Shown piece after piece: positions 12,194 to 57,816 of a stretch of DNA of 64,000 bases. Source of the stretch: Chitinophaga agri (lineage in GTDB: Bacteria > Bacteroidota > Bacteroidia > Chitinophagales > Chitinophagaceae); contig NZ_CP048113.1 in NCBI RefSeq assembly GCF_010093065.1, forward strand, positions 1,984,001 to 2,048,000. The letters run 5' to 3'. The translations under genes and the position numbers were made by a program. The first letter of the stretch is position 1, and each line of letters begins with the position of its first letter. A model generated the notes under the pieces. That model searched no databases and had not been told where the DNA came from. It worked only from the letters and a program-made list of their open reading frames with translations.

Positions 12194-12272
12194 GGTCACT
12201 TCAAGGTCACTTAAAGGGCACTTCAATATCCCCTAGATATTGAAGTGCCCTTTAAGTGACCTTGAAGTGGCC
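12194..12272. repeat. 37-bp inverted repeat built of three 11-nt units per arm
   Basis: Left arm units: GGTCACTTCAA (12194-12204), GGTCACTTAAA (12205-12215), GGGCACTTCAA (12216-12226), then TATC. The 5-nt centre CCCTA (12231-12235) is followed by the mirror image to 12272. The only mismatch (T12196 with G12270) is a U-G wobble in + strand RNA. A degraded fourth unit, GGGCACCAACA, may precede it at 12183-12193. It is too long and lacks a T-run, so it is not a standard terminator. Confidence 0.95.
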
Positions 12273-48520: not shown

Positions 48521-49105
48521 CTATTTCCGGATATACTGGCCGAAGTAATCAATGAACTTTTGGTTACCATAATCGGCTGCCCCCTCCTGTTTAAATACAA
48601 TCTTACCGGTCTTGCCGATAATCACGGTTGTTGGGATGGAATTGCCCAGTAACTCACCAGGTATCCTGCTCTCTGCCACATATAGCGGCAGCTCATAACG
48701 CTGTTTGTCTATAAAACGTTTCGCTTTTTGATAGTTTCCATCTGTATCTACCGTCAGGAACACCACATTTTTGTCGTTCTTGTATTGTTTATACAGCGCA
48801 TTGATAGCCGGCATTTCCGCACGGCAGGGCGGACACCACGTAGCCCAGAAATTCAGGAACACCACTTTCCCCCTCAGAGAAGACAACGTGAACGTATTAC
48901 CATTGCCATCAGTCAATGCCAGGTCCGGCGCCATACTGTTAGCTACCGCATCCTCCTCCGGTACCGCCGGCTGGAACAGGCCCACCTTCATCAATCCCTG
49001 CATGACAGCCGCCTTCACTGAAGGATTGACAAGCATCAAAACAAGGAACAGGGTCATTATCCCCGTAGTAATATTTGATAAAGAAAATAACCGTTTCCAA
49101 CCCAT
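48521..49105 (-). CDS. TlpA-like thiol-disulfide oxidoreductase
   Basis: The 194-residue protein has an N-terminal membrane anchor (about 11-30) and a thioredoxin fold with the active site WATWCPPCRAEMP (about 91-103). Membrane-anchored TlpA/ResA proteins reduce disulfides in the periplasm, for example on apocytochrome c. The cis-proline is in the IPTTVII segment. It is divergent from the TetR gene, with a 375-nt spacer containing the 11-nt-unit hairpin. Confidence 0.9.
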   Translation of the reverse strand: MGWKRLFSLSNITTGIMTLFLVLMLVNPSVKAAVMQGLMKVGLFQPAVPEEDAVANSMAPDLALTDGNGNTFTLSSLRGKVVFLNFWATWCPPCRAEMPAINALYKQYKNDKNVVFLTVDTDGNYQKAKRFIDKQRYELPLYVAESRIPGELLGNSIPTTVIIGKTGKIVFKQEGAADYGNQKFIDYFGQYIRK

Positions 49106-49202: not shown

Positions 49203-49341
49203 CAGGTATCGGGTAGGTTTCCTCCTATTAGCTTCTTTGTAGTAGGCTTTAGGTAGGCTTTCTCTTCCGTTTCTCTTCCGTTTTAAAACGGAGGAGAAAC
49301 GGAAGAGAAAGCCTACCTAAAGCCTACTATACCGATACCTG
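49203..49341. repeat. Long hairpin of four 11-nt units per arm plus outer stem
   Basis: Inner arms are 49240-49284 and 49285-49329, 45 bp with no loop and one U-G wobble (T49276/G49293). Left units: TAGTAGGCTTT, AGGTAGGCTTT, CTCTTCCGTTT, CTCTTCCGTTT; right units are their mirror. Outside, CAGGTATCGG (49203-49212) pairs with CCGATACCTG (49332-49341), leaving a 27-nt bulge on the left. It lies between divergent tlpA-like and TetR genes, so it does not end either transcript. Confidence 0.95.
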
Positions 49342-49479
49342 ACCGAAGGTCTACTCAGGGTCAACCGAAGCAGCATTCACTCCGTTCTCTACCCATCCCC
49401 CTTCCTTCAAATAAAAAATTAGTAAGTAAATGAACGTTTACTTACCTTTGTGTCATCAGGGGAATAAATACCCATTGTC

Positions 49480-50076
49480 ATGAGACCAAAGAACATCGAA
49501 AAAGAAGAAGCGATCCGTTCCATCGCCCTGCAGATCATCGCAGAAGAAGGCCTGGAAAACCTCAGTATGCAAAAGCTGGCGAAAGCCGCTAATGTATCAC
49601 CCCGCACCATCTACATCAAGTACGAAAACAAAGAAGACTTTCTGATCAAACTATTCATTGATGAAGTACTCGCCTCGTACGAAAACGCCATGCTGGAAAA
49701 CTTCAGTACGGACATGTCATTCGCCGAAGGAGTAAAAAAAATATGGACAAACAGTTTTAATTACTTCAAAGAGAACAGCCACCATTATGCATTAATGCAA
49801 TACGGCAAATCCTCTCCCCTGCTCAATAAAGCCTATCTGGAAAGAGGCATCAAAGAGGGCGATTTCTTTGCGCCTGTTCATCAGTTCCTGATGCAGCACG
49901 TCAATACTGGCACCATCAAAAAGCTACCCGTACAGGTACTCAGAGCGCTTTTATTCGCGCCGCTCTTTGATCTTATCAACGAATATTTCGAACACCTGCA
50001 GCGACCCAAACAGATCATCACAGACAAAGTCATCGCCGACTGCTGCGAAGCAGTGGCGAAAGGGTTACTGCTATAA
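49480..50076 (+). CDS. TetR/AcrR family transcriptional regulator
   Basis: A 198-residue regulator with an N-terminal helix-turn-helix (about 26-55: MQKLAKAANVSPRTIYIKY, ENKEDFLIKLF) and a variable ligand-binding helical domain. It lies 26 nt upstream of the FAD monooxygenase gene in the same direction and probably represses this pair. The ATG at 49480 gives a typical start (MRPKNIEKEEAIRSIAL). Confidence 0.93.
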   Translation: MRPKNIEKEEAIRSIALQIIAEEGLENLSMQKLAKAANVSPRTIYIKYENKEDFLIKLFIDEVLASYENAMLENFSTDMSFAEGVKKIWTNSFNYFKENSHHYALMQYGKSSPLLNKAYLERGIKEGDFFAPVHQFLMQHVNTGTIKKLPVQVLRALLFAPLFDLINEYFEHLQRPKQIITDKVIADCCEAVAKGLLL

Positions 50077-57473: not shown

Positions 57474-57517
57474 AGCGCTTGGCCGTCGCTAGTTCGTCGC
57501 TTGTTCGTCGCTTGTAG
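57474..57517. repeat. 11-nt tandem repeat array, about four units
   Basis: Units: AGCGCTTGGCC (57474-57484, degenerate), GTCGCTAGTTC (57485-57495), GTCGCTTGTTC (57496-57506), GTCGCTTGTAG (57507-57517). There is no mirror arm nearby. Same 11-nt period as the hairpin loci at 12194 and 49203. Confidence 0.85.
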
Positions 57518-57816
57518 CTCCACTGTCTACCCAGATGCCTGGGGAGATAGCATAAGTGATCACCAAGAATGCATGATTACAGGTAGATAAGAGAATAAAT
57601 CATTCACAATGAACATTTTACTGATTATACTGTGCTTATTAATCACTCGTTAGCCGCGATCCAACTATCACAAACTTGTCCAGCCCGGCCCGTTACCCGG
57701 AAATTTTCTCAATTTCCCCGGGTCAATTTTAAATAATTTCAAAACTTTGACAATTCATTTGTTAATTCGAAACTAATTGCGCATTTTTGTTTGCGAAAAG
57801 TAAATTGTTTCAAATA

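Follow-up and report, generated by a model that had tools for sequence, protein, structure and literature searches.

Two dispersed families of palindromes built from mirrored 11-nt units in the genome of Chitinophaga agri

Results

A loop-free palindrome between two divergent genes

The stretch of Chitinophaga agri DNA analysed here (64,000 nt, hereafter the window) contains a hairpin of two 45-nt arms that are 98% complementary and meet without a loop (Table 1). It lies between a thioredoxin-fold gene and the gene of a TetR-family regulator, and the Pfam matches of these neighbours (AhpC-TSA/thioredoxin-like and TetR_N) agree with the labels tlpA-like and tetR-like given to them in a preliminary description of the locus. 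Because the two genes diverge, the palindrome cannot terminate either of them, as had also been argued there; no T run follows the stem of this copy on either strand in an intrinsic terminator test.

Each arm consists of four units of 11 nt and one of the two bases of the central TA, which confirms the loop-free layout of four mirrored units per arm, with the coordinates and units first proposed. A single U-G wobble had been listed as part of the same architecture. One T-G mismatch is present in the window copy, but it is no hallmark of the family, as the arm mismatches differ from copy to copy. The RNA fold of 49203-49341 has an energy of -102.2 kcal/mol, compared to -35.95 ± 4.16 kcal/mol in 200 shuffles (z -15.9). 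Identity within the window arm is 0.71 at lag 11 and 0.43 at the second-best lag, and only 1 of 20,000 mononucleotide shuffles of the arm reached 0.71 at any lag from 4 to 22. The window has no match to Rfam 15 at gathering score. Chance or artefact is ruled out by the other genomic copies, the complementarity of the arms and the lag-11 shuffle test; an assembly artefact in particular is unlikely because the 22 other strong places of this family lie in the same single contig.

Table 1 Features of the window discussed in the text (positions count from the first base of the window)
Feature	Position	Strand	Remarks
Family B sister palindrome	12194..12272		GGTCACTTCAA GGTCACTTAAA GGGCACTTCAA TATCCCCTAGATA, mirror with one change
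Thioredoxin-fold gene (AhpC-TSA/Redoxin, TlpA-like)	48521..49105	-	Diverges from the element; Pfam
Outer part of left arm	49203..49239	+	Extra small hairpin; outermost bases pair with right flank up to 49341
Family A palindrome	49240..49329		4+4 mirrored 11-nt units around TA (49284-49285); 22 further strong places in genome
Left-arm units	49240..49283	+	49240-49250 TAGTAGGCTTT, 49251-49261 AGGTAGGCTTT, 49262-49272 CTCTTCCGTTT, 49273-49283 CTCTTCCGTTT
Right-arm mirror units	49286..49329	-	49286-49296 is CTCCTCCGTTT on the - strand (one T-G mismatch); other three exact mirrors
Right-arm ranks 5 and 6	49330..49351	-	AGGTATCGGTA and GACCTTCGGTC on the - strand; by eye, similar to the degenerate outer units elsewhere in family A
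TAnnTTTG word before TetR-family gene	49443-49450	+	Presumed consensus
TetR-family regulator gene (TetR_N)	49480..50076	+	Diverges from the element; Pfam
Family C direct array	57476..57520	+	Unmirrored 11-nt units of the CGCTAGTTCGT type, repeated in genome

Two families share a plan and differ in unit sequence

The genome under study (G000) comprises 7,969,925 bp (7.97 Mb) in one contig. A search with the region around the 49240 palindrome found 23 strong places besides a single weak one, which we call family A. A search with the second hairpin of the window, at 12194, gave at least 40 places (40 scored of 53 candidates), which we call family B. The hairpins at 49240 and 12194 are copies of two dispersed families. 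As the preliminary description had it, the unit sequences of the two are unrelated, and the 11-nt period and mirror layout are common to both.

For their anatomy, 23 elements of A and 35 of B were divided into 11-nt ranks counted from the centre. The B set comprises the window copy and 34 of 38 fetched stretches that passed the palindrome score, L060, L068, L070 and L073 being left out. In both families about six 11-nt units are conserved in each arm, with background beyond; the whole element measures ~134-150 bp and its palindromic core 58-98 bp in A (n = 23) and 49-99 bp in B (n = 35). Across copies, each unit at ranks 1-3 holds ~13-21 bits of information. The value declines in A from 19.6 bits at rank 1 to 1.0 at rank 7, and in B from 20.6 at rank 1 to 2.7 at rank 7 and 0.9 at rank 9. 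The B unit approximates GGKCACYWNAA, with fixed positions kept and variation mainly at positions 3 and 7-9. The earlier suggestion that repeat length and fold matter more than sequence is, in that wording, not supported by these values: the sequence of the inner units matters, and B keeps its fixed positions.

By eye, outer B arms often finish with a CTGATC-type motif, and the number of units in B arms differs by whole 11-nt steps. Copies L047, L048 and L052 of B have their inner three units in common in at least one arm and differ in the parts outside. The elements are thus inverted repeats of short tandem repeats whose number varies between arms (number judged by eye, in B), as in foldback elements. 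A tail of 58-99 nt occurs at four A copies only (L020:2562-2660, L014, L016 and L024), and three of these tails match the fourth at 93-97% along 58-92 nt. A test for polarity of the two ends gave 958.8 for A, below the null maximum of 961.1. The value for B was 1873.2 against 1841.9 in a null run with fewer restarts, and for that reason no polarity of B is claimed.

Inner arms covary and outer arms do not

Inner units are more alike within a locus than between loci. Identity at rank 2 of A is 1.00 within and 0.86 between loci; in B it is 0.98 and 0.80 at rank 2 and 0.88 and 0.68 at rank 3. At ranks 5 and 6 the arms of one locus are not more alike than those of different loci, either in A (0.30 within v 0.40 between; 0.38 v 0.35) or in B (0.36 v 0.44; 0.44 v 0.44). 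Covariation was found in the inner arms of both families: 122 cells changed on both sides in B, compared to 43 when shuffled and at most 23 when slid, and 102 in A, compared to 47 and at most 19, although these cells count sequences rather than events and are inflated by shared ancestry. Changes at positions 3 and 7-9 of the B unit are mirrored in the opposite arm. The outer units of A and B retain motifs and show no covariation.

The 11-nt period marks particular families

A lag-11 autocorrelation of inverted repeats, put forward as a check in the preliminary description, was made on an even 400-kb sample of G000. Among 12 palindromes with an arm score of at least 18, lag 11 was best in six, all of them A or B; the other six had best lags of 7, 8, 9, 12, 13 and 13. 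In G000, lag 11 therefore marks these families and not inverted repeats generally. Intergenic DNA of G000 with palindromes masked showed no lag-11 excess (z -0.0), lags 4 and 21 standing out instead (7.1 and 4.3); a background 11-bp period of intergenic DNA was thus not seen in this genome. In the relative G025, lag 11 reached z 5.5 in intergenic DNA, direct arrays having been left unmasked.

Direct arrays in 1.264 Mb had a lag of 11 in six cases, of 7 in four and of any other value in at most two. The window contains a direct array of 11-nt units, family C, with at least 40 matching places in G000 (40 of 60 candidates scored). From the common period, C would belong to one system with A and B. 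A long direct array of ~17 units of the GAAGAAGCATC type, likewise 11 nt, lies at L145:17703-17895 of G013.

Placement in the genome and tests of mobility

Gene context rests on simple ORF calls rather than annotation. By these calls, the ORFs flanking fetched A loci (n = 22) are convergent in 6 cases, co-directional in 10 and divergent in 6; for fetched B loci (n = 34) the counts are 11, 17 and 6. Short, doubtful ORFs overlap three of the A and two of the B copies. A and B are accordingly dispersed, short, inverted repeats that are mostly extragenic, as are MITEs. Terminator-like hairpins that read toward the element accompany 25 of the 70 B ends, and in 15 of those cases the distance to the third unit is 37-54 nt; hairpins reading away from it accompany 15 of the 70. 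The corresponding counts for A are 10 and 4 of 46 ends.

When ORFs within 1.5 kb of the 23 A copies were clustered, the larger groups lay across the palindrome or across a dispersed repeat, apart from one of long ORFs described below, and we saw neither a shared transposase-like ORF nor an autonomous A copy with a linked transposase. Another dispersed intergenic repeat (CGGCTTATGACG...TTGCTAATATTGTG type) lies at varying distance from several A copies (flanks of L015, L016, L020, L022 and L038). One cluster of long ORFs occurs in three A and three B loci, its four tested members being TonB-receptor-like, and a second occurs in one A and four B loci.

With regard to target-site duplication, direct repeats in B flanks were no commoner than in mismatched flanks. 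A flanks showed a slight excess of 8- and 9-mers (4 v 1.5 and 3 v 0.3 of 23) at inconsistent positions. The Y1 (HUH) transposase PF01797 had no match in G000, G009, G012, G013, G025, G027 or G030, with positive controls in 5 of 14.

Distribution among relatives

The relatives searched numbered 58, of which 35 were Chitinophaga and 23 lay outside the genus. Among the matches listed, the family A query found weak matches in G012 and G025, the family B query found matches in G009, G013, G027 and G030, and neither matched the 23 genomes outside the genus, where families of other unit sequence could escape the search. Sister families with the common plan and other unit sequences occur in the same soil bacterium and in some relatives. 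The palindromes of G025 and G012 have other unit sequences with a best lag of 11 and, among the matches listed, are numerous in G025, where two places share a 244-bp stretch of two hairpins at 97% identity. G013 has a palindrome of yet another unit sequence with lag-11 arms (L218:2353-2418; 0.73). Samples of 100-140 kb from G001, G007, G024, G029, G032 and G035 contained no lag-11 palindromes; since B-carrying G013 was also blank in 140 kb, such samples can miss them. Two long imperfect palindromes of G029 (L293:7000-7073 and L296:7633-7732) have a best lag of 8, not 11.

G009, the closest relative among the genomes compared, is collinear with the window. In a comparison of spacers with this relative, as had been suggested for close strains, both the A and the B palindrome of the window were absent from the orthologous G009 spacers, which align poorly; G009 has a B copy of its own at a place where G000 has none. 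The spacers of the two genomes have diverged too far to provide a clean empty site. The 206-aa neighbour gene has 22 further Chitinophaga loci, none of which shows the B palindrome, synteny having been checked only for G009. At one orthologous spacer, G000 has an A palindrome and G025 has palindromes of other sequence. Such a pair could equally stem from old co-evolving sites or from independent insertions. As for a phage or plasmid source, B had no match in viral contigs (exact pattern) or phages and A none in plasmids.

A gene family linked to family B

The flanks of one B copy in G000 match those of B copies in other species, and the part in common is an unannotated multi-copy gene of ~179 codons, which we call gene X (for example L253:8595-9131 in G009 and 15 places, L357-L371, in G000). 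It has no significant Pfam or NCBIfam match. Matches to it occur in 11 of 13 genomes, with at least 46 in G009 and at least 19 in G000, counting fragments and distant paralogues as well. The gene X model (pLDDT 77.3, pTM 0.55) has a C-terminal Ig/FN3-like sandwich whose structural matches are all weak (the best in PDB at E 5.4e-4, TMq 0.35), and the idea of an enzyme was set aside.

Among the 15 B places listed for each of G009 and G013, 10 in G009 and 5 in G013 have all or part of gene X within ~250 nt. In fetched stretches, where adjacency was counted up to 400 nt from the palindrome, X adjoins B palindromes at 1 of 37 places in G000, 0 of 18 in C. rhizophila, 3 of 4 in Flexibacter sp. ATCC 35208, 1 of 1 in C. 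silvisoli, 3 of 6 in G013, 0 of 2 in G030 and 2 of 3 distinct places in G009 (3 of 5 rows, two places having been fetched twice). It was found beside none of the A-type palindromes (0 of 23 in G000, 0 of 8 in G025 and G012). Family B thus occurs with X and, mostly in G000, without it.

Fifteen of the 16 close copies of X in G000 were fetched; the sixteenth, L074, has a B palindrome. A B half-site with no more than one mismatch precedes X in all 15, compared to 4 of 1000 even stretches of a genome sample, coding DNA included. In these copies 84-100 nt separate the ATG from the end of the 3' half of a B-type site (0-4 mismatches). In 11 of the 15, the word TAnnTTTG, which we take to be the -7 consensus of Bacteroidota, is located 30-39 nt ahead of the start codon. 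A hairpin upstream of the likely promoter favours a role as DNA, and the B-related hairpin, at its near-fixed distance upstream of the promoter-like word, could be an upstream regulatory site of gene X.

Discussion

On balance we lean slightly toward reading A and B as dispersed, non-autonomous foldback- or MITE-like DNA elements whose 11-bp units serve as phased protein-binding sites. This reading rests on the mirrored arms of about six units, the 23 A and at least 40 B places, the lineage-specific units and the absence from the two G009 spacers orthologous to those of the window. Every unit would form a single binding site, with neighbouring sites roughly a helical turn apart, and this spacing would make the element a symmetric platform for an oligomeric DNA-binding protein, either a mobilising recombinase or a host protein. 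Over the inner three or four units the palindrome may extrude, or fold back when single-stranded, with one arm templating the other; selection keeping the hairpin could alternatively account for the likeness of the inner arms. Outer units would be left to drift apart between the arms. That most B copies of G000 and all A copies lack gene X counts against this reading, as do the flanks, which show no consistent target-site duplication, the poorly aligned G009 spacers with no clean filled or empty site, the absence of a linked transposase, and the orthologous spacer with palindromes of different sequence in G000 and G025.

Several known elements resemble these palindromes in part. The foldback element Tm1 has composite inverted repeats made of tandem units of 13-15 bp (mostly 14), a 9-bp target duplication and a transposase (PMC3169594). 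Eukaryotic foldback (FB) elements share with A and B the arms of short tandem repeats, a repeat number that varies between arms, separate outer motifs and MITE-like forms. A and B differ in being bacterial, in their length of ~134-150 bp, in their 11-bp unit and in having no internal region, and a target duplication and transposase of the Tm1 type were not found for them. Correia/NEMIS, ERIC, RUP, RPE and YPAL are likewise dispersed, non-coding repeats of less than 200 bp that form a long hairpin (PMC2229807); among bacterial MITE-like repeats, A and B stand apart by arms made of arrays of 11-nt units. YPAL targets span or adjoin dyad symmetry (PMC2229807), and some B copies similarly adjoin terminator-like hairpins. 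REP/REPIN sequences with RAYT are also many-copy extragenic palindromes, and RAYTs of the Bacteroidetes subclass 2.6 are flanked by atypical structures copied elsewhere (PMC3733652 and PMC6006769). REPs measure 20-40 bp and carry GTAG or CGTC tags, and the cores of A (58-98 bp) and B (49-99 bp) exceed them. By size and by the absence of a Y1 enzyme from seven element-bearing genomes, A and B are no REP/REPIN-RAYT system. Of the new class of element for which the 49240 hairpin had been named the best candidate, a common plan under different unit sequences is borne out; a wholly new class is not supported, since bacterial MITE-like and eukaryotic foldback elements are similar in kind.

It seems somewhat unlikely that the long hairpins are instead transcribed and work as RNA, whether as RNase III sites, protectors of mRNA 3' ends or small RNAs. 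Their fold is very stable (z -15.9), their inner units covary in pairing, and of the 34 B copies fetched, 28 are flanked by one gene 3' end or two (convergent genes in 11 cases, co-directional genes in 17). The period fits as well: 11 bp is one turn of A-form RNA, which would put the constant bases on one face of the duplex. However, a terminator-like hairpin faces the element at 25 of 70 B ends and may often end transcription short of it, and in 11 of 15 copies of gene X the promoter-like word lies downstream of the hairpin. The window copy, moreover, stands between divergent genes and in a window with no Rfam match, and the outer units do not covary.

Fixed chromosomal sites for a nucleoid, gyrase-like or segregation protein of the host, spread in the past and now under selection, are an unlikely explanation. 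They would account for the strongly conserved inner units, the genome-wide copies and the palindromes of like plan in one orthologous spacer of two species, and the position near gene ends recalls the BIMEs of E. coli, which sit near gene ends too. Such sites are harder to reconcile with two window loci that are not common with G009, with unit sequences that differ between species, and with 100-kb samples of four species that hold no lag-11 palindrome, although samples of this kind can miss them.

It is quite improbable that replication slippage and quasi-palindrome correction gave rise to the palindromes as a neutral side effect in which no protein takes part. Pairing that is near-perfect at the tip and decays outward, and length changes by whole units, are what these processes would give, but they leave unexplained the conserved outer motifs, the unit sequence conserved across dispersed copies and the near-fixed B half-site before all 15 fetched copies of gene X. 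That the window palindrome is the operator of the adjoining TetR-family regulator is scarcely credible despite its position between divergent genes, one with a TetR_N domain, and was discarded on copy number: the core recurs at 22 other strong places, and no ORF family is common to most A places except ORFs over the palindrome itself.

Beyond the DNA-element reading that we lean toward, a wider proposal can be made only tentatively. Chitinophaga may carry an undescribed system of 11-nt modules, arranged as mirrored palindromes (A, B and relatives) or as direct arrays (C) in lineage-specific 'dialects', of which the B dialect is linked to gene X and lies at a near-fixed distance upstream of it. 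The palindrome together with gene X, or a recombinase that reads 11-bp modules, would then be a new mobile or regulatory unit. Among the open-licence PMC papers listed, none was found to describe repeats of this kind for Chitinophaga. If the DNA-element reading holds, bacteria too carry foldback-like repeats with modular arms, and their many copies form a natural data set for studying how the arms of a palindrome are kept similar. It would also point to a protein that reads DNA in 11-bp steps and to a linked gene family with no significant Pfam or NCBIfam match. A unit of the same length is found in parC of plasmid R1, a plasmid centromere where 11-bp repeats tile a ribbon-helix-helix protein; there the repeats are direct rather than mirrored.
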